NCBI RefSeq assembly: GCF_016862375.1
Contig: NZ_BOMV01000069.1
Span: forward strand, 124,001-188,000
Direction of reading: 5' to 3'
Origin: Paractinoplanes rishiriensis
Lineage (GTDB): Bacteria > Actinomycetota > Actinomycetes > Mycobacteriales > Micromonosporaceae
Length of the DNA: 64,000 nt
Numbering within the stretch: position 1 is the first letter of the stretch; every line of letters starts with the position of its first letter. Under the pieces are notes generated by a model. That model saw only the letters and a list, made by a program, of their open reading frames with translations. It did no database searches and was not told the origin of the DNA. Shown piece by piece: positions 23,805 to 38,710 of this stretch. The position numbers and the translations under genes are program-made.

Positions 23805-25379
23805 GTGACGACTCAGCAGGACGCGGTCCAGGCCGACATCCACACCACCGCCGGCAAGCTTGCCGACCTCGAGCAGCGCACCGACGAGGCGGTACACGCC
23901 GGTTCCGCCCGGGCCGTCGAGAAGCAGCACGCCCGCGGCAAGAAGACCGCCCGCGAACGGATCGACCTGCTGCTCGACGACGACTCGTTCGTCGAACTGG
24001 ACGGGCTGGCCCGGCACCGGTCGACCGCCTTCGGCATGGACGCCAACCGCCCGTACGGCGACGGCGTGGTGACCGGCTACGGCACCGTCGACGGCCGGCA
24101 GGTGTGCGTCTTCTCGCAGGACTTCACGGTATTCGGCGGCTCCCTCGGCGAGGTCTTCGGCGAAAAGATCGTCAAGGTCCTCGACCTGGCCATGAAGATC
24201 GGCTGCCCGATCATCGGCATCAACGACTCCGGCGGCGCTCGCATCCAGGAGGGCGTGGTGGCGCTCGGCCTGTACGCCGACATCTTCTTCCGCAACGTGC
24301 GGGCCAGCGGCGTCATCCCGCAGATCTCGCTGATCATGGGCCCGTGCGCGGGCGGCGCCGTGTACTCGCCGGCGATCACCGACTTCACCGTGATGGTCGA
24401 CCAGACCTCGCACATGTTCATCACCGGCCCCGACGTGATCAAGACGGTGACCGGCGAGGAGGTCGGCTTCGAGGAGTTGGGCGGGGCCCGCACCCACAAC
24501 TCCCGCAGCGGCAACGCGCACTATCTGGCCAGTGACGAGGAGGACGCGATCGACTATGTGCGCGCTCTCCTCTCGTACCTCCCCAGCAATAACCTGGACG
24601 AACCGACCACCTATGACGTTCCCGCCCACCTCGACCCCGGCGAAGCTGATCGTGCTCTGGACGCGCTGATCCCGGACTCGGCCAATCAGCCCTACGACAT
24701 CAAGAAGGTCGTCGAGACGGTGGTCGACGACTTCCTCGAGGTGCAGCCGCTCTACGCGCAGAACATCGTGGTCGGCTTCGGGCGCGTCGAGGGCCGCCCG
24801 GTCGGCGTGGTCGCCAACCAGCCGATGCACTTCGCCGGCACGCTCGACATCGCGGCCAGCGAGAAAGCGGCCCGGTTCGTGCGCACCTGCGACGCGTTCA
24901 ACATCCCGGTGGTGACGTTCGTCGACGTGCCCGGCTTCCTGCCGGGCACGTCGCAGGAGTGGGACGGCATCATCCGGCGGGGTGCCAAGCTGATTTACGC
25001 GTACGCCGAAGCGACCGTCCCCAAGGTCACCGTCATCACGCGTAAGGCGTACGGCGGCGCGTACGACGTCATGGGTTCGAAGCATCTCGGCGCCGACCTC
25101 AACTTCGCCTGGCCCACCGCCCAGATCGCGGTGATGGGCGCCCAGGGCGCGGTCAACATCCTCTACCGCGGCGAGATCGGCACCGCCGAGCGACGGGCCG
25201 AACTCATTCAGGAATACGAGGACACGCTGGCCAACCCCTATATCGCGGCCGAACGCGGTTACGTCGACGCCGTCATCCGCCCGTCCGAGACCCGCGGGCA
25301 GATCGTCCGGGCGCTGCGCACGCTACGCACCAAACGCGAGACGCTGCCGCCCAAGAAGCACGGCAACATCCCGCTCTAA
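23805..25379 (+). CDS. accD5: Acyl-CoA carboxylase beta (carboxyltransferase) subunit
   Basis: The 524-residue carboxyltransferase subunit moves CO2 from biotin to acetyl- or propionyl-CoA, giving malonyl- or methylmalonyl-CoA. Family features are [35 protein letters not shown], the oxyanion glycines [14 protein letters not shown] and [18 protein letters not shown] in the N-domain, and [24 protein letters not shown] and [21 protein letters not shown] in the C-domain. It resembles the propionyl-CoA type (AccD5/PccB). Possible starts are TTG 23793, GTG 23796 and GTG 23805; the last best matches family N-termini. It works with the alpha subunit at 36959 and the epsilon subunit at 30627. Its stop overlaps that of the convergent M50 gene. 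Confidence 0.95.
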
Positions 25380-26035
25380 GGCTGGTTCCGCAGCAGCAGG
25401 ACGCCGCCGAACACCAGCGCGGCCAACGACCCCAGCCAGAACAGTGCGACGAAGAACGCGCTGGACAGGTGGGTCTTGGCGGCGAGCTGCCCGGTGTCCG
25501 GCTCGCCGCCGGCCTGCCAGTTGAAATAGAGCTCCGGGATCTGGCGCGCCCCGCCCATCAGCAGGAACCACACCCAGATGTAGGCGAAGACCAGCTGCAC
25601 CTGCTCGTTGGCTCGCATCGCCACGGTCCAGATCAGCAGCCCGGTCAACGGCACCACGAACAGGCCGAACACGTTGCGCACCATGATCAGCAACAACGCC
25701 ATGAGGACCAGCGTCAGGAGCAGGATGGTGCGCGGCGCGACGCCGTGCACCAGCATCCACGCGCCCGCCAGCCCGAAGATCGACGGTCCCAGGTAACCGG
25801 CCAGGCCCATCGCGAGCGTCTGCAGCACCGTCGCTTCGGTGTTGCGGAAGACCACGCTGCCGGCGCCGCCCCGGTCCACCCGGACCTTCTTGATCAGCAG
25901 TCCGGTCAGCCGGCCGAACATCGCGTGGCCACCCTCGTGCGCGATGGTGATGGCGTGCGTCGTGAACCGCCACAGCGGCACGGCGGCCACGAAGGCGACC
26001 ACCCCTGTGGTCCAGGCGATACCGGGATCCGCCAT
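25376..26035 (-). CDS. M50-type membrane metalloprotease (first copy)
   Basis: A 219-residue polytopic protein with about six helices. The zinc motif is [11 protein letters not shown] in the N-terminal half (HExxH with Gly-Gly). A later NxxPxxD-type second motif is not obvious, but [16 protein letters not shown] is the typical glycine-rich helix of the M50B family. Members of this group resemble SpoIVFB and S2P and cut within membranes, and the substrate here is unknown. TACGTT ends 6 bases before the ATG. The next gene upstream is a paralogue. The pair separates the carboxylase beta subunit from its usual neighbours. Confidence 0.85.
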
Positions 26036-26097: not shown

Positions 26098-26829
26098 CTA
26101 AGCGGCGGCCGGCAGCCATTGCCCGGCCAGCAGGAAGGCGCCGACCACCAGCGCCGCCACATTGACCAGCAGGAAAAAGCCAACCCAAAACAGCGCGGGT
26201 ACGTGGGTGACGTGCGCCAACTGGTCGGCGTCCGACTCGGGCATCCGGCCGCGGCTGCGCAGACTCTGCAACTCGAAGACCGGCCGCACACCACCGAAAA
26301 GCAAAAACCAGACGCCCGCGTACGCGAAAGCCGCCTGCACCTCGGGCGACGCGTACCAGGAAACGGCGACCACGATCGCACCGGTCACCAGCAGCGACAC
26401 CACGCCGAACAGGTTCCGGATGTTGATCAGCATCACCAGCAGCAGCACCGCGGCCAGCCAGAGCAACAGGGTGATCCGGTTGCCGCCGAGCAGCCAGGCG
26501 CCGAGCACACCCACCAGCGAAGGTGCGATATAGCCGCCGAGCAGGGTGAACATCATCCCCGGCCCGGTCGGTCGCCCGGACGAGAGGGTGAGGCCCGAGG
26601 TGTCGAACTCGAGCCGGATGCCGCGCAACCGGCGCCCGGTGAGCAGGGCCGCAAGCGCGTGACCGCCCTCGTGCGCGATGGTCACGGCGTTGCGGGCGAC
26701 CCGCCACACCGGACGGAACGCCACGGCCACGAGCCCGGCCAGCGCGGTGAGCAACACGAGCAGCCCTGGCGGATCCGGTTGGGCGCCGAGCAGCTTGTCC
26801 CAGAGGTCAGTCACACCGTCGATCGACAC
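26098..26829 (-). CDS. M50-type membrane metalloprotease (second copy)
   Basis: A 243-residue paralogue of the previous gene. The zinc motif is [50 protein letters not shown] block follows in the same place as [17 protein letters not shown] in its neighbour. About six membrane helices are predicted. The GTG at 26829 is preceded by TACAGT with a 7-base spacer, predicting its own leaderless transcript, although the two genes lie only 62 bases apart. The target is unknown. A nearby anti-sigma factor would be a natural substrate, but none is visible. Confidence 0.85.
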   Translation of the reverse strand: MSIDGVTDLWDKLLGAQPDPPGLLVLLTALAGLVAVAFRPVWRVARNAVTIAHEGGHALAALLTGRRLRGIRLEFDTSGLTLSSGRPTGPGMMFTLLGGYIAPSLVGVLGAWLLGGNRITLLLWLAAVLLLVMLINIRNLFGVVSLLVTGAIVVAVSWYASPEVQAAFAYAGVWFLLFGGVRPVFELQSLRSRGRMPESDADQLAHVTHVPALFWVGFFLLVNVAALVVGAFLLAGQWLPAAA

Positions 26830-27158: not shown

Positions 27159-30100
27159 CTACTTCGGCTGAAACCCCTGGTAGAGCAGCTGCAAATCCTT
27201 CTGCGAAGCCTGCCAGTCGTCGGGCGACACATACCAGTTGAGCGAGTACGCGGCCCCGGCGTCGACCCGGAAGTTGCGGCGGATCACCCGCTGCGGGTTC
27301 CCGCTGTCATCGGTCGTGTAGGTGAACTCCCAGTCGGCCGCCGACTCGTAGTCCCGGTAATTCACCCGGGCGAGCCGGAGCAGGCTGTAGTTCCGGTAGG
27401 TGCCACGGCGACTGGCTTCCTGACGCTTCCAGTCGTCATACGCATCCGCTTGCGGCGACGTGGTCCGTCCCAGAATCAGCAACCGGTTGTTCCACCGGAA
27501 CCGCATCTCCTGTCCGCTCCCGCTGACGTTCGCGCCGTCGGGAATCGGCAGCACGAAGGCCGGCGCGTTGCCGGTAGCCCTACCCGTGTACCACTTCCAG
27601 CCGGCCGGAAGCTTCACCGCCCCCGGCGCCGCGGCCGTGGTCGGTGCCGCACTGGGCGACGACGGACCGGTAGTCGGCGGCTGAGGGTCACCCCCGCCGG
27701 GCCCGGCCGCGGGTGCACCGGCGCTGGGCCGCTCACCACCGGCCGCCGCGGTAGGAACCGCCTTCGGCTCACCACCGGCCGGCTCTTTCTCCTCTTCGCC
27801 AAACGCACCAACCACCAGCGTGCCGATCAGGACCAGCACCAGCAGCACAATGCCCGCACCGACGGCGGCCTGCCGATAGGTGAGCCGGGTCCCGAAGACC
27901 GTGACCCCGCTGGGCAGCGGCCGGGGCTCCATGGGCTGCCAGGCCGGCCGGGTAGACCGCCCCATAGGCGAAATGGGTGCAACCGACGCGTCGTCGTCAT
28001 CGTCGTCGAGCGGCGCCCCACTCCCCGACCGGCCATCGCCCGTCGAGGCACTGCTCGCCGAGCGGCCTACCGGGACTCGGACCTGAGACGGCACCGCCTC
28101 CTCGCCGCCCATTTCCGACTTATCCGTGGCGTCTTGCTTATCCGTGACGTCTTGGCGCTCGGCGGCCGGTTTGCCCTTCGCGCCCCCGGCCACATCCGTC
28201 GATGTGTCGGTCACGCCCGCGGCTGCACCGGTCACCTGGCCTGCCGGCGTGGCATCGACGGCGCCGGCGCTCGCTCCCGTGCTCCCAGCCGAACCCGCAG
28301 CACCCTCGCGGTCAGTCTCGTCCGCGCTCGGGCTCGCCGCGGCCTTCTTTGCCGCCGCCTTCCGCTTCTTCGAGGTGCGGCCGCTCGCAGCTTGGCCGGC
28401 AGCCGTCTGCTCCGCAGCGACTCCGTCGACGTCCGCATCGCTGGTCGCAGCTTTTCCGGCGGTAGCCGATTTGTCCGCTGTCGACTCGTCCCCTGCCGGC
28501 GTGCCAGTTGCCGACTTGTCCGCCGCCGGCGTGTTCGCTGTCGACCTGTCCGCCACCGGCGTGTTCGCTGTCGGCCTGTTCGCTGTCGGCCTGCCCGCCG
28601 TCGGCCTGTCTGCTGTCGGCCTGTCTGCTGTCGGCCTGTCCGCTGTCGGCGTGCTCGCGGAAGCAACTCCACCCGGGGCTACGCCGCTCGCCGCAGCATC
28701 GTCGGCGACCGAGTCTGACTTCTCGGTGTCCGCAGACGCCGGATGCGGCGGGCTCGCCGCCGCGTTGCCGGTCGCGGCCGACTCACCCGTCTGCGCCGCG
28801 CCCTCGGCGTCCGAAGTCGCCTTACCGCCAACCCTCGTGCCACTGCTCGAGGCGACCGTCGCAGCCCCGGCCGGGGCTGCGGCACTCCTCGCCGAGTCGC
28901 TGGTTTCCGATTGCGCACCCGTCGCCGCGCCGCTCGTCGCCGACTTGGCACCTGCCGCCGAGCCGGCCGCATTGCTCTGGTCGGTGGCTGTCTCGCTGGG
29001 CGTCTCGTCTGTGGCTGGCGGTGCCGTGGCTTCCTTACTAACGGCTGCACTGGCGGCTGCGCGACTGGCGGCTGCGCGCTCCCCAGCAATCCCACCCGCC
29101 GGCGATTTGTCCTTTGTCGCCCTATCGGTGGACGGGTCGCCCACCGTCGTGGCGTCCACCGGCGGGCCGCTCACCACCGTGGTGGGGTCGGCCGGCGGGT
29201 TGCCTACGCGACTGATCAGGGCCGTCGGGTCGGTGGGCGGCGGCAGGGGTCGCCGGCCACGCGGGGCGGCGTCGGGCGGGGCCGCGAAAGCACCCTGAAC
29301 GCCGCAACCCCGGGCAGGCGGGTTGGCCGGCGGCTGCCCCGTCGGCGGGGGGCTGCCTGGTCGCGTACCAAATCTGTCATCTCGGACCGGAGGTGTATCC
29401 ACCCGCGTGGCATCGAGGTGTGGTTTGTCGATCTTTGGGCCGTCGACCCTGGTCGGCGTGTCGGCGGGGCGGCCTACCTGGGCCTTGCCCGGCACATAGA
29501 CCGGCGGCCGGCCACCGCCGGCCGCCGGGCGGCCACCCGAAGCTGGTGGGCGGCCCGGCGGATCGACCGGGCGGGCGGGCACGACCGGCGGCCGGGGACC
29601 GGGAACCACCGGCGCCGAGCCGGTCGGCGACGCCAGCGCCGGACGCTCCCGGCCGACGCCCGGGCGGCGCATGGTCGGGCTCATCGGGAAGGTCACTCGC
29701 GACCGGCGGCCGGCGGCCCGGTTGAGCAGGCGCTCCGCCTCCTCGGCGTTGATCCGGTGCGACGGATCCTTGCGGAGCAGGCCGTTGAGCACCGGCTTGA
29801 GCGGGCCGGCGTTGCGCGCGGTCGGCGGATTTTCGGTGGCCAGGGCGGCCAGAGTGGCGATGGCCGAGGGGCGGGCGAACGGCGAGGCACCCTCGACCGC
29901 AGCGTAGAGCGTGGCACCGAGCGACCAGAGGTCGGCGGCGGGTCCGGCGCTGCCGTCCCGGGCGCGCTCCGGAGCGATGTACGCCGGGGAGCCGAGCACC
30001 AGGCCGGTGCGGGTCACGTTGGGGTCGCCCGGAACGGTGGCCAGGCCGAAGTCGGTGAGCACCACACGGCCGTCGGCGCCGATCAGCACGTTGCCGGGTT

Positions 30101-30524
30101 TCACGTCCCGGTGCACGACACCGGCCCGGTGCGCGGCCCGCAGCGCCCCGAGCACGCCCAGGCCGATCTCGGCGGCCCGCACCGGCTGGAACGGCCCGTC
30201 GCTGGCCAGCGTGTCCTGCAGCGACCGAGACGGCACGTATTCCATGACGATCCACGGGTCGGCGTCGGTGCGCAGGACGTCGAAGACGCGTACCACGTTG
30301 ACGTGGTTGAGCCGGGCAATCGCGCGCGCCTCACGCAGCGACCGCTCGCGCATCTCCTGTCGCTCGCCCGCCGTGAGGCCCGGAGGCGGGACGAGCTCTT
30401 TGATGGCCACGTCACGGTGCAGGACGACGTCGGTCGCCCGCCAGACACGACCCATCCCGCCCTGACCGAGCGGCGCGACGAGCCGGTAACGGTCAGCGAC
30501 AACAAGCGGGGGAGAAGAAGACAT
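27159..30524 (-). CDS. Giant transmembrane Ser/Thr protein kinase (1121 aa)
   Basis: A PknB-type receptor kinase. The kinase domain covers residues 13-270: P-loop GQGGMGRVW, Lys42 in VAIKEL, catalytic loop HRDVKPGNVLI, LTDFGLATV, and APE as IAPERARD. A Pro/Ala/Thr-rich cytoplasmic linker of roughly 600 residues follows, with tandem TADRP/TANTP repeats. One membrane helix comes next (QAAVGAGIVLLVLVLIGTLV), and a C-terminal extracellular domain of about 150 residues (WKWYTGRATGNAPAFVLPIP to the end) is shared in style with the kinase at 54548. Most bacterial kinases of this type have 500-700 residues, so the linker is exceptional. TATTTT lies 7 bases before the ATG. It is divergent from accE. 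Confidence 0.93.
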   Translation of the reverse strand: MSSSPPLVVADRYRLVAPLGQGGMGRVWRATDVVLHRDVAIKELVPPPGLTAGERQEMRERSLREARAIARLNHVNVVRVFDVLRTDADPWIVMEYVPSRSLQDTLASDGPFQPVRAAEIGLGVLGALRAAHRAGVVHRDVKPGNVLIGADGRVVLTDFGLATVPGDPNVTRTGLVLGSPAYIAPERARDGSAGPAADLWSLGATLYAAVEGASPFARPSAIATLAALATENPPTARNAGPLKPVLNGLLRKDPSHRINAEEAERLLNRAAGRRSRVTFPMSPTMRRPGVGRERPALASPTGSAPVVPGPRPPVVPARPVDPPGRPPASGGRPAAGGGRPPVYVPGKAQVGRPADTPTRVDGPKIDKPHLDATRVDTPPVRDDRFGTRPGSPPPTGQPPANPPARGCGVQGAFAAPPDAAPRGRRPLPPPTDPTALISRVGNPPADPTTVVSGPPVDATTVGDPSTDRATKDKSPAGGIAGERAAASRAAASAAVSKEATAPPATDETPSETATDQSNAAGSAAGAKSATSGAATGAQSETSDSARSAAAPAGAATVASSSGTRVGGKATSDAEGAAQTGESAATGNAAASPPHPASADTEKSDSVADDAAASGVAPGGVASASTPTADRPTADRPTADRPTAGRPTANRPTANTPVADRSTANTPAADKSATGTPAGDESTADKSATAGKAATSDADVDGVAAEQTAAGQAASGRTSKKRKAAAKKAAASPSADETDREGAAGSAGSTGASAGAVDATPAGQVTGAAAGVTDTSTDVAGGAKGKPAAERQDVTDKQDATDKSEMGGEEAVPSQVRVPVGRSASSASTGDGRSGSGAPLDDDDDDASVAPISPMGRSTRPAWQPMEPRPLPSGVTVFGTRLTYRQAAVGAGIVLLVLVLIGTLVVGAFGEEEKEPAGGEPKAVPTAAAGGERPSAGAPAAGPGGGDPQPPTTGPSSPSAAPTTAAAPGAVKLPAGWKWYTGRATGNAPAFVLPIPDGANVSGSGQEMRFRWNNRLLILGRTTSPQADAYDDWKRQEASRRGTYRNYSLLRLARVNYRDYESAADWEFTYTTDDSGNPQRVIRRNFRVDAGAAYSLNWYVSPDDWQASQKDLQLLYQGFQPK
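28472..28660. repeat. 15-bp tandem repeats in the kinase linker
   Basis: Degenerate copies of a 15-bp unit, about GTCGGCCTGTCCGCT on the plus strand, run in phase with the reading frame. They encode repeats such as TADRP, TAGRP, TANRP and TANTP. The cleanest copies are at 28565-28655. The tract is likely variable in length. Confidence 0.85.
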
Positions 30525-30531
30525 CACGCAG

Positions 30532-30626: not shown

Positions 30627-30824
30627 ATGGATAAGGAACCGCTGGTCAGAGTAGTTCGCGGCACCCTGACCGACGTAGAGCTGGCCGCCCTGGTCGCCGT
30701 CGTGGCGACCCGATCCACCTCGGTGGATGCCCTACCGCCCCGCCCGGCCGTGTCCGCCTGGGCAAGATCAGCCCGCCCGTCCACCCGCCCCGCCTCGTGG
30801 CGCCACTCCGCCCACCCCCGATAG
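30627..30824 (+). CDS. accE: Acyl-CoA carboxylase epsilon subunit
   Basis: A 65-residue accessory subunit found only in actinobacterial acyl-CoA carboxylases, where it stimulates the beta subunit. It has the conserved start EPLVRVVRGTLTDVELAALV, a Pro-rich variable middle, and the SAWARSARP and SWRHSAHPR end that matches the family's AWxxSxxPR finish. The ATG at 30627 follows a TACGCT hexamer. The gene normally follows the beta subunit directly and precedes maf. Here it lies 5.2 kb from the beta subunit and 3.1 kb from maf, with foreign-looking genes on both sides. Confidence 0.85.
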   Translation: MDKEPLVRVVRGTLTDVELAALVAVVATRSTSVDALPPRPAVSAWARSARPSTRPASWRHSAHPR

Positions 30825-30975: not shown

Positions 30976-31404
30976 ATGATTCCGGAGGAGGACCGCGGCC
31001 CCGCGTGGCTGCGCGACTACGGCTACACCGACTACAGCCAGATCGAAGCCGACATCCAGGCAATGGAGCAGTTCGCCACAAAACTCTCCGCGAACGTGAA
31101 GGACGACTACGCCCCTCACCTCTCCACCGTCTCCACCGCGATGTCCACCCGCCTCCCGGAGCCGGACGGCGGCTTCTACGAACTCGTGTCGTTCCTGACC
31201 GTCCACCACGACGCCCAGAACGTCGCTCACCAGAACGTGTACAACTACGCAAACGGCACGCAGGGCCTTGCGACGGCAGCCCAGGACATCAGCAAGAAGT
31301 ACAGCGGCGCCGACGCCTTCGCCCACGCCAATGTCACCGACGTGACCAAGGCACTGGACCAGGTGGGCGTGCCGACCGGCCAGACCACCGAGGGAGACGT
31401 CTGA
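30976..31404 (+). CDS. Type VII secretion-associated helical protein
   Basis: A 142-residue, mostly helical protein without a signal peptide. It starts MIPEEDRGPAWLRDYGYTDY and has a central QFATKLSANVKDDYAPHLSTV helix. Its size, acidic nature and position directly before a WXG/PPE-like gene and a mycosin gene are typical of small proteins in type VII secretion (ESX-like) loci of Micromonosporaceae. I do not see a WXG motif, so it may be a chaperone or an Esp-like partner rather than a substrate. A GGGGGAGGCAGG site precedes the ATG. Its TGA overlaps the next start (TGATG), so the two are translationally coupled. Confidence 0.75.
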   Translation: MIPEEDRGPAWLRDYGYTDYSQIEADIQAMEQFATKLSANVKDDYAPHLSTVSTAMSTRLPEPDGGFYELVSFLTVHHDAQNVAHQNVYNYANGTQGLATAAQDISKKYSGADAFAHANVTDVTKALDQVGVPTGQTTEGDV

Positions 31405-32768
31405 TGCTGGACGCAGGCGGTGGTGGAGGCGGCGGCACCCCGTGGGCGTTGCTCACCGTCGACAAGATGTACGAGCTGATCAAGAGTGCCGACACCGACA
31501 AGCAGTGGACCCTGGCCGACGGTTGGAAGAAGTCCGCCGAACTGATCTCCTCCCACCGCTTCCAGGTCCAGGACTACCGCGACAACCTGGCCAGCGCGTG
31601 GCCTCCGGACAGGAGTCAGGCCTCGGCGGCATACCTGGACCGCCTGGACGTCATGATCGCCAGCCTGACGGAAACCTACGAGGCCGCCCTCCAGAACTAC
31701 GACGCCGTCGTTTCAGCGACCGGATCCATCTACCAGGCCCAGGTCCAGATGGAAAAGATCTACCAGGAGTACAAAAACAACGAGACCCTCCTGGCCAACT
31801 TCGCCGCAAAACAGCAGGAGCAACAAAACAACCCCACCCCGACGCCAAGCCCGAGCCCAAGCGGCGGCGAGCAGCCACCGGTAGCCACCGGCCGCCAGGA
31901 AGCCTTGCGACTACAGGCGTCATCAATGCTCAACGGCGTAAGCACCGACTTGGCCCAGGCCCAGGCCCGCATTGCCAGGCCGGCCCCATACCAAAAGCCG
32001 GGTGACCTCAAGGGCGAGCAGCCTACCGGCGACGATGGCGGCTACTTCCCGCCGCCGATTCCGCCAATCACACCCAATTACGGTGGCAGCAACTCATCGG
32101 GGTCGGGATCCACAAGGCCCTCAACGACTTTCCCTGCGGCGACGAGTGTGCCCACCCCTCCGGCGACGACGCAACCGGGCCTGATTCTCGGCGGTACCAC
32201 TCCGCAGGGCCTGACTCCGCCTACCCCCATCAACCCGGCTTTGCCGACGCCCGCCGGCCCAGGCGTTCTTCCGTCTCCTGGTGCACTTCCCCCGAGCAAC
32301 CCTCTCCTCCCCGGCGGAGGCCAGTCTGTCGTGCCGACAACTGGGCCAGGCTCAGGTCGCAACCTCGGCACACCGCGTGATGGTGTTGTCCGTCCAGGTG
32401 CCCGCCCGGACATGCTTCGGCCTATGCCGCCCGGCGGCGTCATAGGCGCCGCCCCGGCCATCGGTCCCGTCCATCCGGGCGCTGGACGACCGGGGAGCAC
32501 GCGGGTCAATCCAGTTGGTGGAGTGATCGGCGAGGGTCAAGGCGTAGGCGCCAGGCCCGGGAACAGTGCCGGTGGGTCCCTCGCCGCACCACACGCAGGT
32601 GGCGCTTACGGCCCCGGCGGTCGTGGCAATTCGGGCCGACGCGAAGACGCGGACGGTTCTCATTGGGACCCCGATAATCCCTGGGAGACCGCGGAGGGCG
32701 TCGCGCCCGTGGTAATGCCTCCGCGAGAGCAGCGCGTCGATCCAGGTCCGGCGATCGGACTCCATTGA
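31404..32768 (+). CDS. PPE/WXG-like type VII substrate with Pro-Gly-rich tail
   Basis: A 454-residue protein. Residues about 15-150 form a helical hairpin domain (MYELIKSADTDKQWTLADGW, then NLASAWPPDRSQASAAYLDR and a coiled coil MEKIYQEYKNNETLLANFA) like the N-domains of WXG100/PPE proteins. Residues about 155-420 are a Pro/Gly/Thr-rich low-complexity region similar to EspI/PPE tails. The end, WDPDNPWETAEGVAPVVMPP, resembles C-terminal segments of actinomycete type VII substrates. There is no Sec signal, which fits ESX export. It is coupled to the gene before and overlaps the mycosin gene after it. The cargo function is unknown. Confidence 0.75.
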   Translation: MLDAGGGGGGGTPWALLTVDKMYELIKSADTDKQWTLADGWKKSAELISSHRFQVQDYRDNLASAWPPDRSQASAAYLDRLDVMIASLTETYEAALQNYDAVVSATGSIYQAQVQMEKIYQEYKNNETLLANFAAKQQEQQNNPTPTPSPSPSGGEQPPVATGRQEALRLQASSMLNGVSTDLAQAQARIARPAPYQKPGDLKGEQPTGDDGGYFPPPIPPITPNYGGSNSSGSGSTRPSTTFPAATSVPTPPATTQPGLILGGTTPQGLTPPTPINPALPTPAGPGVLPSPGALPPSNPLLPGGGQSVVPTTGPGSGRNLGTPRDGVVRPGARPDMLRPMPPGGVIGAAPAIGPVHPGAGRPGSTRVNPVGGVIGEGQGVGARPGNSAGGSLAAPHAGGAYGPGGRGNSGRREDADGSHWDPDNPWETAEGVAPVVMPPREQRVDPGPAIGLH

Positions 32769-33901
32769 GAATTCGTCGCATCGCGAGTGCGGCCGCAGCT
32801 CTATCGATTGCGGCCGTCTCAGTCCCAGCAAGCCCCGCATTCGCAGATAGTGTCCGCGACCGCCAATGGCACCTGCGCAGCCTGAATATCGCACAGACTC
32901 GACCGATTTCGACCGGATCCGGAGTTGTCGTCGCAGTTCTCGACTCTGGGACCTATCCACATCCGGACTTGCGGCGGAATCTCCTCAACGGAACCGACGA
33001 GATTGCAGGCAGCGGAAACGGGAAGGTCGACAGCATCGGCCACGGAACTAATATGGCTTCCCTGATCGCCGCGCACGGCAAAACCACAAATAGCGGAGTC
33101 CAGGGAATAGCACCATCCGCCAAAATACTACCTGTGCGGATCTCGAAGGTTGGCAAGGATATCCAGCCCACCACTCTGGCCAGTGGAATCAAATGGGCCG
33201 CCGACCATGACGCGAAAGTGATCAATGTTTCCGCCGGAACCGGGCCCGACTTCGCCCTGCAGGATGCCGTAGACGCTGCCCTCGATGGCGACGCGGTCGT
33301 AGTCGCAGCCTCCGGAAATACCTCATCGGATGCCGTGATCAACTTCCCGGCTGCTCTTGACGGAGTCCTCGCCGTAGGCGCAACCGGTCGAAACGGCAAG
33401 TATTCTCCGATTTCCGTAAAGGATCCCAAGGTTCAGATTTGCGCACCCGGTGTCGATATCACCAGCGCCCAGCCCAAAGATCGATACGTAACGGTCAGCG
33501 GAACATCAGAATCGACGGCCATTGTTTCTGGGGCTGTGGCGCTTGTGCGGGCTAAGTTTCCGGATCTCTCTGGGCCTGAAGTCATTGAGCGGATCACCTC
33601 GACAGCCGATGACATCGGGCCGCCTGGGCGGGACAACGAGTGTGGCTTCGGGCTTCTGAATATCGTCAAGGCGCTCACCGCTGACGCGCCCGCAGGCGGC
33701 ACCCCGACATCTGCGGCCGCGAGCAGTGCTGCCGCAACCACCGCACCAGCCACCCTCCCGCCCACCTCCGCCACCGCGTCCGACGACGGTGCCGAACCCG
33801 CCTCCAGCGCCACCCCCCTGGTCCTCGGTGGCCTAGCCGGCCTCGTCGTTGCCGGTGGCCTCGTTGCGGCCCTCGCTGTCCGGCGGCGGCGGCGCCTCTG
33901 A
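32765..33901 (+). CDS. Mycosin-type membrane-anchored subtilisin protease
   Basis: An S8-family protease of 378 residues with a signal peptide (about 1-27, ending SPAFA), the peptidase domain and a Ala/Thr/Ser-rich spacer. A C-terminal membrane helix (VLGGLAGLVVAGGLVAALAV) and an Arg-rich stop-transfer follow. This is the MycP layout of type VII systems. The triad is Asp60 (VLDSG), His93 (GHGT) and Ser248 (GTSES), with Asn185 as the oxyanion residue. GTSES replaces the usual GTSMA. The start is a TTG that overlaps the upstream TGA. GC is low for this genome: the 60-base rows at 33061 and 33121 have 60% and 53% GC. Confidence 0.9.
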   Translation: MRIRRIASAAAALSIAAVSVPASPAFADSVRDRQWHLRSLNIAQTRPISTGSGVVVAVLDSGTYPHPDLRRNLLNGTDEIAGSGNGKVDSIGHGTNMASLIAAHGKTTNSGVQGIAPSAKILPVRISKVGKDIQPTTLASGIKWAADHDAKVINVSAGTGPDFALQDAVDAALDGDAVVVAASGNTSSDAVINFPAALDGVLAVGATGRNGKYSPISVKDPKVQICAPGVDITSAQPKDRYVTVSGTSESTAIVSGAVALVRAKFPDLSGPEVIERITSTADDIGPPGRDNECGFGLLNIVKALTADAPAGGTPTSAAASSAAATTAPATLPPTSATASDDGAEPASSATPLVLGGLAGLVVAGGLVAALAVRRRRRL

Positions 33902-33969: not shown

Positions 33970-34608
33970 GTGCAGAACGACATCGCGTACCGGTTGATCC
34001 TTGCCTCGGCCAGTCCGGCTCGGCGGGCTCTGCTCAAGTCGGCGGGGATTGATGCCGAGGTCATGGTCAGCGGGGTGGATGAGTCGGGGGTGGAGGCGGC
34101 GGACGCGTACACGCTCTGCTTGGCTCTTGCTCGGATGAAGGCTCGCACCGTGGCCGCCGAGTTGCCCGCCGACCCCGGGATTCTGGTGCTCGGGTGTGAC
34201 TCGGTGCTGGCCTTCGAAGGGCAGGTTTTCGGGAAGCCCGCCAACGCCGAGGAAGCCGCCAAGCGCTGGGCCATGATGCGCGGGCGCTCCGGCGTGCTGC
34301 ACACCGGCCACCACCTGACCGGCCTCGTCAGCGGGCGGCAGGCGGAGAGCGTCGGGACGACCGTGGTGCATTTTGCCGACGTCACCGATGCGGAGATCGA
34401 AGCCTACGTCGCCACCGACGAGCCGCTGAACGTTGCCGGGTCCTTCACGCTCGACGGACGCGGGGGCGCATTCGTCGAGCGCATCGAAGGAGACCCGGGC
34501 AACGTCATCGGGCTTTCGCTGCCGCTGCTGCGCAGGCTGCTCATGGAGATGGACGTCTCGATCACCAGCCTGTGGCGGACCGAAAACCGGGCCGAAAACC
34601 GGGCCTAA
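33970..34608 (+). CDS. maf: Maf-like nucleotide pyrophosphatase
   Basis: Maf proteins are house-cleaning nucleoside triphosphate pyrophosphatases that remove non-canonical nucleotides, and some inhibit septum formation. The 212-residue protein shows the substrate motif ILASASPARRALLKSAG near the start, the catalytic GCDSVLAFEGQVFGKP, and VGSF-like NVAGSFTLDGRGGAFVERIEGDPGNVIGLSLPLL. The GTG at 33970 is supported by a TAGCCT hexamer. The last codons (ENRAENRA) come from a 12-bp tandem repeat that continues past the stop. In relatives maf follows accE directly. Confidence 0.94.
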   Translation: MQNDIAYRLILASASPARRALLKSAGIDAEVMVSGVDESGVEAADAYTLCLALARMKARTVAAELPADPGILVLGCDSVLAFEGQVFGKPANAEEAAKRWAMMRGRSGVLHTGHHLTGLVSGRQAESVGTTVVHFADVTDAEIEAYVATDEPLNVAGSFTLDGRGGAFVERIEGDPGNVIGLSLPLLRRLLMEMDVSITSLWRTENRAENRA

Positions 34609-34641
34609 CCCCGCGCCGAAAACCGGTCCTAAAACCGGTTA
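34582..34641. repeat. Five 12-bp tandem repeats across the maf stop
   Basis: Five consecutive 12-base units with consensus GAAAACCGGGCC run from the last codons of maf to the stop codon of the convergent ABC permease gene. Units 1 and 2 are identical. Unit 3 carries the maf TAA, unit 4 differs by one base, and unit 5 ends in the permease stop. The repeat fills the whole intergenic space. Confidence 0.85.
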
Positions 34642-35394
34642 CCGCACGCTCCGGGCGAACTCCCGCGCCGCCCACAGCACGGCCAGCACCGCCAGGACCG
34701 TCATGATCAGCAGGCCCTGCCAGACCTCGGGGGCGCCCAGGTCGCCGCGGAACAGGGACCGGGTGCCGTTCACCGCCCAGGAGAACGGGTTCCAGTCGGC
34801 GATGCCCTGCAGCCAGCCGGGCGCGAAGGTCATCGGCAGCAGGATGCCGCTGAGCAGCAGGACCGGCTGGGCGACCGTGTTCATCATCGGGGCCAGGGCG
34901 TCCTCGCTGCGCACCTTCAGCGCCACGCCGTAGCTGACCGCCGACGTCATCAGCGAGATCAGCCCCAGCATCAGGTAGGCCAGCAGCAGGTAGCCGATGA
35001 ACACGCGCAGGTCGAACAGCAGGGCCAGCAGCGTGATGATGACCGCCTGGGCGATCAGCGACACCACGTCGCGCAGCGAGCGGCCCAGCAGCAGCGCCAG
35101 GCGGCTCACCGGAGTCACCCGGGAGCGCTCGATCACGCCCGCCCGCAACTCGGCGATCAGGCCGAACCCCTGGAACAGGCCGCCGAAGATGGCGAGCAAA
35201 ACCAAAAGACCAGGCACAAAGATCTCGTACGCCTCGGCGTTGGAGTTGACCTGGAGTGCGGGTTTGAGCAGCGGGGCGAACAGCAGCAGGTACATCACCG
35301 GCTGGAAGACGCCGACCAGGATCCACACCGGATTGCGCAGCAGCAACTGCAACTGTCGCTGCAGGATCAGTGACGTGTCACGCAGGAGTTTCAT
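34639..35394 (-). CDS. ABC-2 type exporter permease, DrrB-like
   Basis: A 251-residue permease with six membrane helices, an N-terminal amphipathic helix (MKLLRDTSLILQRQLQLLLR) and the ABC-2 signature region SRLALLLGRSLRDVVSLIAQ. The conserved end PMTFAPGWLQGIADWNPFSWAVNGTR is also present. This is the DrrB family, which pairs with DrrA-type ATPases to export hydrophobic drugs or lipids. It starts 3 bases downstream of the ATPase gene, so the two form one operon under the PadR-type regulator upstream. The substrate is unknown. Confidence 0.92.
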   Translation of the reverse strand: MKLLRDTSLILQRQLQLLLRNPVWILVGVFQPVMYLLLFAPLLKPALQVNSNAEAYEIFVPGLLVLLAIFGGLFQGFGLIAELRAGVIERSRVTPVSRLALLLGRSLRDVVSLIAQAVIITLLALLFDLRVFIGYLLLAYLMLGLISLMTSAVSYGVALKVRSEDALAPMMNTVAQPVLLLSGILLPMTFAPGWLQGIADWNPFSWAVNGTRSLFRGDLGAPEVWQGLLIMTVLAVLAVLWAAREFARSVR

Positions 35395-35397
35395 GGC

Positions 35398-36351
35398 TCA
35401 GTCCTCCCGCAGGGATCGGCCGGTCTTGGTCAGGAAGACGTCGTCGAGGCTGGGGCGGTGCAACTCGATCGCGCCCAGCGGCACCCCGGCGGCGTCCAGC
35501 GCGCGCAGGATCTGCGGAATGGCCACGGCACCGTCGTCGACATAGAGGCGGACGTTGTCGTCGTACGTCTCCATCTTGTAGGAGGAGAGGGCCTGCGTCG
35601 CCGCGGCCACCGCATCCACCGGCAGGTCGACCCGGACCACGTCGCCGCTGATCTCGCGCTTGAGTTCGGCTGGCGTGCCGGACGCGACGATCTCGCCGTG
35701 GTCCATGATGGAGATCCGGTCGCAGAGCGCGTCGGCCTCCTCGAGGTAGTGGGTCGTGATGAAGACGGTCATGCCCTCGCCCCGCAGCCGGCGGACCTCG
35801 TCCCACATGTGCGCGCGACTCTGCGGGTCGAGGCCGGTGGTCGGCTCGTCGAGAAAGACGACCTTGGGTTCGTGGATGATGCCGAGCGCGATGTCGACCC
35901 GGCGCCGCTGACCACCGGAGTAGGTCTTGCACCTGCGGTCCGCGTACTCGCTCAGCTGGAAGCCGTCGAGCACCCGGGCCGCCCGTTCCATAGAGGAAGC
36001 CTTGCTGATGCCGTAGAGCCGGGCCTGCAGGACGAGTTCCTCCCGGGCCGTCGAGTCGTCCCAGGTGCTGCCGCCCTGCGCCACGTACCCGATCCGCCTC
36101 CGCACGGCACCGGGATCGGTGAGCAGGTCGGCGCCCGCGATGGTCGCGGTGCCGCCGTCGGGCTCGATCAGCGTGGCGAGCATCCGCAGCGTGGTGGTCT
36201 TGCCGGCCCCGTTGGGACCGAGGAAGCCGAAGATCTCGCCCTCGGCCACGTCCAGGTCGACGCCGCGTACGGCCTCGACGATCTTTTTCTCCCGCCCCTG
36301 GCGTGAGGTGAACGACTTGCGTAGTCCGCGAGTCTCTATCATGCCGGGCAT
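35398..36351 (-). CDS. ABC exporter ATPase, DrrA-like
   Basis: A 317-residue ATPase. Walker A is [16 protein letters not shown], the signature [16 protein letters not shown], Walker [17 protein letters not shown], and the switch histidine is in [11 protein letters not shown]. The C-terminal domain of about 80 residues, ending [21 protein letters not shown], is the DrrA-type regulatory extension. It energises the permease encoded 3 bases downstream. A GGA lies 6 bases before the ATG at 36351, and a second in-frame ATG is at 36342. The 24-bp palindrome begins 11 bases upstream of the start, well placed for control by the adjacent PadR protein. Confidence 0.95.
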
Positions 36352-36361
36352 GTTACGTCCG

Positions 36362-36385
36362 TCAAGTTTGACTAGTCAAACTTGA
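36362..36385. promoter_or_regulatory. Perfect 24-bp palindrome, candidate PadR operator
   Basis: Each half reads TCAAGTTTGACT and the two halves are perfect inverted copies with no spacer. It covers the last codons and TAG stop of the PadR gene and ends 10 bases before the ABC ATPase ATG. Its AT-rich core contrasts with the surrounding GC. It fits a dimeric winged-helix repressor site controlling the exporter, although in RNA it could also form a stem-loop. Confidence 0.6.
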
Positions 36386-36923
36386 TTAAGCCAGCCTCCA
36401 GACGCTCGGCCGTCTTCTCGCACCACGCGATCTCGGCCTCGGCCATGGCAATGCTGCGCTCCCACAGCCAGGAAACATAGATCGGCTTGTTGTCCGCCCA
36501 GTCCGCCGTGGTCGCCGCGGTCAGCTGAGCCGCACCGGCCCTCAGTTGCAGCGCCCGGTTGCGGAGCGCCGACACCGCCTCGTCCTGGCCAAGCGCCGGC
36601 AGGAACGAGAACGCGGCCATGAACGGGTCGGGCCCGGGCGCCAGATTCCACCAGCCGGCCCGCAGCAGCGACTGGAACTCGGCCTTGCCCTTCTCGGTGA
36701 TCTCGTACGACGTGCGGGCCGGCCGGCCACCGACCTGCTCGGTGGCCACCTCGTGGAGCAGGCCCTCCTCGGAGAGCTTGCGCAACGCGTGATAGATCGA
36801 TCCGGGTTGCACGTTGGCCCACTTGTCGGCGCTCCAGCTCAGCAACTCCCGGCGGACGTCGTATCCGTGCACCGGCTGCATCCACTGGACCAGGCCGAGA
36901 ATCATCATGCGGGTCGCAGACAC
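36372..36923 (-). CDS. PadR-family transcriptional regulator
   Basis: A 183-residue PadR protein of subfamily 1. The winged helix is at about residues 5-85 ([39 protein letters not shown], then the wing [12 protein letters not shown]). A C-terminal helical dimerisation domain follows (residues 100-183). Such repressors next to DrrAB exporters usually sense the exported compound. The GTG at 36923 is the natural start, and a TATTAC hexamer sits further upstream. The gene end is part of the 24-bp palindrome, suggesting that the regulator controls the exporter promoter located within its own 3' end. Confidence 0.92.
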
Positions 36924-36958: not shown

Positions 36959-38710
36959 GTGCGCAAGGTTTTGATCGCGAATCGAGCCGAGATTGCGGTC
37001 CGGGTGATCCGGGCCTGTCAGGACTCCGGCCTGGCCAGCGTCGCCGTTTATGCCGACAGTGACCGGGACGGGCTACCCGCCCGGCTCGCCGACGAGGCGT
37101 ACGCCCTGGGCGGGGAGACGGCCGCCGACACGTATCTGCGCATCGACAAACTGCTCGACGTCGCGGCCCGCAGCGGCGCCGACGCCGTGCACCCGGGTTA
37201 CGGCTTCCTCTCCGAGAACGCCGAGTTCGCCCGGGCCGTGCAGGACGCGGGCTTGACCTGGATCGGGCCGGCCCCGCAGGCCATCCGCGACCTCGGCGAC
37301 AAGGTGACCGCCCGGCACATCGCCCAGCGGGCCGGCGCTCCGCTGGTGGCCGGCACCGCCGAACCGGTGAGCGGCCCCGATGAGATCGTCGCGTTCGCCC
37401 GCGAGCACGGCCTGCCCGTCGCGATCAAGGCGGCGTTCGGCGGCGGCGGCCGGGGGCTCAAGGTGGCCCGCACGATCGAGGAGATCCCGGCGCTGTTCGA
37501 GAGCGCAACCCGGGAGGCGGTGGCCGCGTTCGGGCGCGGCGAGTGCTTCGTGGAGCGCTACCTGGACCAGCCCCGGCACGTCGAGGCGCAGGTCCTGGCC
37601 GACACCCACGGCAACGTGGTGGTGGTCGGCACCCGGGACTGCTCGCTCCAGCGCCGCCACCAGAAACTGGTCGAGGAGGCGCCGGCCCCCTTTCTCACCG
37701 ACGCGCAGCGCGAACAGATCCACTCCAGCGCCAAGGCGATCTGCCGGGAGGCCGGATACCACGGCGCCGGCACCGTCGAATACCTGGTGGGCCAGGACGG
37801 CACCATCTCGTTCCTCGAGGTCAACACCCGGCTCCAGGTGGAACATCCGGTGAGCGAGGAGACCGCAGGCATTGATCTGGTACGCGAGCAGTTCCGGATC
37901 GCCGACGGCGCGGTGCTGGCGCTGACCGACGACCCGGCGCCGCGCGGGCACGCCCTCGAGTTCCGCATCAACGGCGAGGATCCGGGCCGCAACTTCCTGC
38001 CCGCCCCCGGCTCGGTCACGGCGCTGACCTGGCCGCTCGGCCCGGGCGTCCGGGTGGACGCGGGCGTCGAGGCGGGCAGCGTGATCGGCGGCAACTTCGA
38101 CTCTCTGCTCGCCAAGATCATCGTGACCGGCGCGACCCGGGCCGAGGCGCTGGAGCGGTCCCGCCGGGTGCTCGACGAGACCGTGGTCGAGGGCATCGCG
38201 ACCGTGCTGCCGTTCCACCGTGCTGTGGTGCGCGACCCGGCGTTCACCGGCGAGCCGTTCACCGTGCACACCCGCTGGATCGAGACCGAGTGGGCGGGCG
38301 GGGTGGAGCCGTTCGGTGCGGCGGCCCCGGCCGGCGAGCCGGCCGAGCGCGAGACCGTCGTGGTCGAGGTGGGTGGCAAGCGACTCGAGGTGAGCCTCCC
38401 CAAAAACCTGGTGGCCGGTACGGGTCAGCCCGCCGCCGCAAGCCGTCCGGCCGCGCGCCGGTCGTCGGCTTCGGCGAGCGCGTCCGGCGGCGGCAACGCG
38501 GCCACGCTGACCGCGCCGATGCAGGGCACGATCGTGAAGGTGGCGGTGTCCGACGGCGACGAGGTGCAGGAGGGCGACACGATCGTCGTGGTCGAGGCCA
38601 TGAAGATGGAACAGCCGCTGCAGGCGCACCGGCCGGGCACCGTGTCCGGACTGTCCATCGAGGTCGGCACCACGGTCACCGCCGGCACCGCGATCTGCTC
38701 GATCGACTGA
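36959..38710 (+). CDS. accA3: Acyl-CoA carboxylase alpha subunit (biotin carboxylase + BCCP)
   Basis: A 583-residue bifunctional subunit. The biotin carboxylase domain (residues 1-445) begins [20 protein letters not shown] and includes the ATP-grasp glycine loop [14 protein letters not shown] and [34 protein letters not shown] and [15 protein letters not shown]. After a linker comes the biotinyl carrier domain with the biotin-accepting lysine in [11 protein letters not shown]. It charges biotin with CO2 for the beta subunit at 23805. BirA at 21655 would biotinylate it. The GTG start follows TAGGCT. It may serve both acetyl- and propionyl-CoA carboxylases, as AccA3 does in mycobacteria. Confidence 0.97.

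Follow-up and report, generated by a model that had tools for sequence, protein, structure and literature searches.

A putative PE/PPE-like gene pair coupled to a mycosin gene between accE and maf in Paractinoplanes rishiriensis

The closest described systems belong to type VII (ESX) secretion. In EspB, a substrate of mycobacterial ESX-1, the PE and PPE parts are joined in one chain, and the mycosin MycP1 cuts the C-terminal part (PMC9811218, PMC5082899; these and the papers cited below are drawn on in part). Pairs such as PE25-PPE41, PE8-PPE15 and PE5-PPE4 (with EspG) have a small helical partner gene just before the PPE-fold gene, and the small partner carries YxxxD (PMC11217815). LXG proteins of type VII secretion system b are long, helical and secreted, and their small Lap partners are helical too but lack WXG (PMC11217815). 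Here we describe three genes, called A, B and C, that lie between accE and maf in a 64,000-nucleotide stretch of Paractinoplanes rishiriensis DNA (NZ_BOMV01000069.1, positions 124,001 to 188,000; hereafter the window).

30627-30824, plus strand: accE, acyl-CoA carboxylase epsilon subunit (Pfam ACC_epsilon, E 2.7e-12, 47.6 bits); left border
30976-31404, plus strand: gene A, 142 residues, ATG start; candidate PE-like partner
31300-31314, plus strand: YxxxD motif of A (YSGAD, residues 109-113), directly after the second predicted helix
31404-32768, plus strand: gene B, 454 residues; PPE-like helical domain and long Pro/Gly-rich tail
31437-32003, plus strand: PPE-like domain of B, about residues 12-200
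31599-31607, plus strand: WPP of B, residues 66-68, at the turn between helix 2 and helix 3
32016-32765, plus strand: tail of B, predicted to be disordered (block predicted local distance difference test score, pLDDT, mostly 41-60)
32664-32759, plus strand: conserved C-terminal signature of B (WDPDNPW...DPGPAIG)
32765-33901, plus strand: gene C, mycosin (subtilase), 378 residues, TTG start
33970-34608, plus strand: maf (Pfam Maf, E 2.9e-53, 180.8 bits); right border

The likeliest reading of the trio is an ESX cargo pair with its mycosin that stands apart from the machine and is maintained at a housekeeping locus. A purine-rich stretch precedes the ATG of A, the stop of A and the start of B share a single base (31404), and the stop of B overlaps the start of C at 32765-32768. 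These coordinates agree with the translational coupling proposed in an earlier note on this DNA; a scan for terminator-like and promoter-like sequences gave counts near chance. The same note had seen no ESX core gene in the window, which holds for EccB, EccC and EccD; EccE was not searched for. In the same genome, EccC and EccD lie on contig C59 and EccB on contigs C107 and C48; therefore, a machine is available to borrow, and the idea of a substrate-like pair with a mycosin but without a core is supported.

How might such a trio work? We consider the following mechanism moderately probable as a whole. A and B would pair in PE/PPE-like fashion, like an EspB divided over two chains, and would be exported via the distant ESX machine of the cell, with the YxxxD of A as the export signal. 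C, encoded in the same coupled operon, would be a mycosin dedicated to A-B. Its own signal peptide would take it to the membrane, and outside the cell it would cut the long tail of B. The trio would descend from the end of an eccC-A-B-mycosin operon that holds the cargo genes, and would have settled between accE and maf early in the Micromonosporaceae, with mainly inheritance, losses and tandem duplications since then. Within this mechanism, we infer the pairing of A with B, their export by ESX and the cleavage of B by C.

The locus shares with EspB/MycP1 a PPE-type helical domain followed by a long C-terminal region, a mycosin and the YxxxD signal. It differs in that the PE-like part and the PPE-like part have a gene each, in that the mycosin is an extra, cargo-linked copy with neither a core gene nor an EspK gene alongside, and in that the trio hosts lack mycolic acids, as far as the part of PMC4791881 on Micromonosporales tells. 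Gene order and the YxxxD of the small partner are as in the PE-PPE pairs, whereas B has no clear sequence similarity to them and carries WPP instead of WxG. Moreover, EspG (PF14011) was not found above the cut-off in any of seven family genomes (one match in G043 fell below it), whereas all three control genomes of a sister family were positive. The likeness to LXG and Lap proteins lies in the helical proteins described above. As differences, B ends in a tail predicted to be disordered and shows no toxin domain in Pfam, a mycosin is linked to it, and these genomes carry ESX genes of EccB/C/D type.

B is termed PPE-like and not a PPE protein because it has no Pfam PPE match; one of 39 B relatives does match, at E 0.0044. 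Its predicted structure has the PPE helical fold, and among the entries ranked by Foldseek its best fold match falls in the group of PE-PPE pairs with EspG (PE25-PPE41, PE8-PPE15, PE5-PPE4). The WPP lies at what we take to be the place of WxG in PPE proteins, and W66 and P68 are invariant in 75 sequences. In the tail, W421 is likewise invariant, and residues 446-452 are conserved in at least 90% of the 75. Strict regular expressions matched 40 of 59 copies for the WPP and 52 of 59 for the end of the tail, so neither is universal among distant copies. Elsewhere in the same genome, the tail signature is clear at the B of contig C69 (E 1e-9) and weak at that of contig C6.

A belongs to no Pfam or NCBIfam family, and a PDB sequence search returned nothing specific, while 254 homologues were found at E <= 1e-3. 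AlphaFold2 predicts a helical hairpin (helices 23-57 and 68-108, mean pLDDT 58.7), and Foldseek gave only noise with this low-confidence model. Y109 and D113 are invariant in 77 close sequences, and Y...[DE] is present in 59 of 61 A copies of relatives, the remaining two having FxxxD. A is put forward as a candidate PE-like export partner of B. Where nearly all other copies have YxxxD, the two further A copies of the same genome (L069 on contig C6 and L070 on contig C69) have FxxxD. A weak match of A to Ntox10 (E 0.083) was taken as chance.

C matches Peptidase_S8 (E 2.9e-51) and scores 277.1 bits (E 2.1e-82) against the mycosin model TIGR03921, slightly below the cut-off of 278.75; this is by far its nearest specific family. 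The subtilase catalytic residues D60, H93, N185 and S248 are present, and all four are kept in 64 of 66 aligned sequences, C included. The misses are a copy truncated at the edge of its locus (L094_36) and an N185D change in L081. Read by eye, the translation has what looks like a signal peptide at its start and a hydrophobic helix at its C-terminal end, with Arg after it.

A subclade of Actinoplanes departs from this pattern: C is lost in L124, L125 and L126, and the oxyanion asparagine has become Asp in L081. The same four genomes have a degenerate WDPDNPW part in the B tail. The tail motif may possibly decay together with C, a lead that comes from four genomes of one Actinoplanes clade. In the P. 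rishiriensis genome itself, three mycosin-like subtilase genes of about 530-650 residues each lie within 7 kilobases (kb) of one another (L071, contig C4, 45-52 kb); they belong to another branch than the window mycosin.

Where did the trio come from? A scan of 163 loci and the window for EccB, EccC and EccD gave matches only in the two loci of the P. rishiriensis core on contig C59 (L067, L068) and in ten loci of relatives (L087-L094, L098, L099). Each of these ten has EccD and EccC in divergent orientation and, next after EccC, A, B and a mycosin: the same three families in the same order as in the window, but adjoining EccC, whereas the window trio stands alone between accE and maf. Five of the ten (L087, L088, L089, L094, L099) have a mycosin at the opposite end too; L087 was typed as mycosin, two WXG100 proteins, EccB, EccD and a second mycosin. 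The P. rishiriensis core runs EccD, EccC and a mycosin directly after EccC, with no A-B between, and the genome has two further A-B-C sets (L069, contig C6, 126-129 kb; L070, contig C69, 68-71 kb). A branch of the mycosin tree (support 94, not starred) sets apart the A-B-linked mycosins, which share their side with two mycosins unlinked to A-B. On the opposite side are four first mycosins of relatives' ESX loci, the core mycosin of P. rishiriensis and four other subtilases of its genome. Because EccC is present in 200 of 200 family genomes, co-occurrence is uninformative on dependence of the trio on ESX.

With A of the window as the single query, matches were found in 144 of the 200 family genomes and 28 of 44 genera; maf was found at E 1e-40 or better in 196. 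The A matches listed cover 133 genomes, 11 of them without a listed maf match, which leaves 122 for position. In 112 of these 122 genomes, the listed A match precedes maf on the same strand at a distance of 0.5 to 5.3 kb (limit 8 kb). A and maf are on different contigs in G171, G025, G002, G019, G053, G073, G021 and G043, on opposite strands and 10 kb apart in G076, and 1.3 Mb apart in G079. A class-wide sample of 296 genomes gave eight matches to the A profile, three strong ones in the family and five weak ones outside it, and no family genome was among the no-match rows listed.

In loci of relatives picked by a match to A (L047-L066, L073-L086), A, B, C and maf occur together in 32 of 34; of the other two, L057 stops at a contig end and L063 has its trio away from maf. 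The order is A-B-C in 29 of the 32 (twice in tandem in L054), and B-C-A in three loci from two genera (L060, L061, L062). A scan of named genomes of Actinoplanes, Paractinoplanes, Micromonospora, Asanoa, Jidongwangia and Spirilliplanes gave 44 loci, which were picked via A and so inform on order, not frequency. All 44 have A-B-C and 40 have accE-A-B-C-maf; in L194 maf was not found and the locus ends shortly after. A second trio stands in tandem between accE and maf in L207 and L224, and a second B-C only in L198.

Elsewhere the content of the site differs. Between accE and maf there may be nothing, as in some genera (L107, L108 and L123 among others), other ordinary-looking genes (L112, L114, L122, L173, L174), a remnant of B only (L111), or A-B without C (L124, L125, L126). 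The view that accE and maf are neighbours in most actinobacteria holds only in part: of 20 out-of-family loci fetched around maf, at least six (L140-L143, L146, L151) have accE and maf no more than 0.4 kb apart in the same orientation, a lower bound because accE is short and divergent.

A tree of the neighbouring genes accA and maf allows inheritance to be followed. Of 94 loci, 91 had maf and 66 had both genes; these 66 were used (52 family, 14 outside). Presence (25 trios, three A-B and one remnant) versus absence takes five changes, a rough count from two genes and a quick tree search; the trio label alone takes eight (shuffled mean 20.3) and the no-trio label six (19.1). The trio is missing from the early-branching lineages of the family; one genus has six members with an empty site and one (G114) with the trio. 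This pattern fits an early gain and several losses. The copy between accE and maf is probably mainly inherited in place, with losses and tandem duplications.

The protein trees are less tidy. The 34 mycosins of the accE-maf site take five changes in the mycosin tree (67 rows), and the 35 B copies of that site take three in the B tree (59 rows), all forced by starred branches. Copies from other sites lie among them. Copying from the accE-maf site to other sites would explain these mixed clades, but the trio may also have arrived at this site repeatedly. The low GC (guanine plus cytosine) content of C, seen in rows at 33061 (60%) and 33121 (53%) against 75% at 37261, was reproduced; the 500-base stretch of the window with the lowest GC starts at 33101 (58%, versus a mean of 70%). 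However, 28 of 33 relatives also have C below maf in GC, with a mean gap of 6 points overall and 18 at third positions. Because it is so widely shared, low GC is an old trait of C, and a foreign origin on this ground was rejected.

Three alternative readings were weighed. First, C might be a second structural mycosin for ESX complexes and no cargo protease, with A-B as cargo that is not cut. Part of PMC5082899 describes mycosins as stabilising ESX membrane complexes, with a protease activity that mycobacterial secretion does not need; A-B persists without C in three genomes. The catalytic residues are nevertheless conserved in 64 of 66 sequences, and C is coupled to B and not to core genes, while the P. 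rishiriensis core has a mycosin of its own; this alternative is unlikely. Second, the trio might be independent of ESX, with C as a surface maturation protease and A-B cytoplasmic or leaving by another route, as the lack of core genes found nearby and of EspG above the cut-off in seven family genomes would allow. Against this stand the conserved YxxxD, the predicted PPE-type fold of B and the paralogues directly behind eccC, which make it slightly less likely still.

Finally, a module of substrates and protease that is mobile, self-contained and a recent arrival between accE and maf, close to the view of the earlier note, is very improbable. In its favour, C is the part of the window with the lowest GC, related trios occupy other sites (L063, L095-L097, L100-L104, L106; contigs C6 and C69, 68-71 kb, of P. 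rishiriensis), some genera have accE and maf adjacent without the trio, and the accE-maf mycosins and B proteins form no single clean clade. Against it stand the shared position, the five changes on the neighbour-gene tree and the shared low GC; for the accE-maf copy, the vertical position largely refutes mobility. Scattering not accounted for by descent was not seen, with 112 of 122 genomes sharing the site, although trios at other sites exist too. The locus scans were aimed at the trio, ESX and neighbour genes, and no search was directed at transposases or integrases. The note had named two outcomes that would contradict it. A trio beside a full ESX core was largely found, as paralogous A-B-mycosin sets behind eccC in ten loci; the other outcome, presence between accE and maf across the family, also largely came true, being frequent (A in 144 of 200 genomes) but not universal.

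What would a detached cargo unit mean? PE/PPE proteins have been called unique or exclusive to mycobacteria in the parts of PMC12209268 and PMC12607722 drawn on here. It is a possibility just short of an even chance that PE/PPE-type cargo is not exclusive to that group, and that Micromonosporaceae have a detachable unit, a pair with a dedicated mycosin, which works without recognisable EspG or mycolic acids and with a distant ESX core in trans. In soil actinomycetes, a cargo pair with a PPE fold would help to trace the origin of the PE/PPE cargo class and offer a harmless model. The part of PMC5082899 drawn on here gives EspB as the only mycosin substrate known in mycobacteria. If the reading is true, mycosins would have their two tasks, keeping the machine together and cutting cargo, divided between different genes, and the role of the protease would become testable, since an extra mycosin travels with the cargo and the core keeps its own. 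A literature search found no paper on the A-B-C trio; most subscription journals lay outside its coverage, so absence is unproven.

The surroundings of the locus hold further genes. On the minus strand at 34639-36923, between maf and the carboxylase alpha gene, is an ABC-2 transporter pair with a PadR regulator, which is found in many relatives, though not all. A large serine/threonine kinase gene (27159-30527, minus strand) is divergent from accE and adjoins it in most relatives read; it contains a long low-complexity stretch with TADRPTADRPTA-like repeats. Two adjacent M50B-type peptidase genes lie at 25376-26035 and 26098-26829, also on the minus strand.
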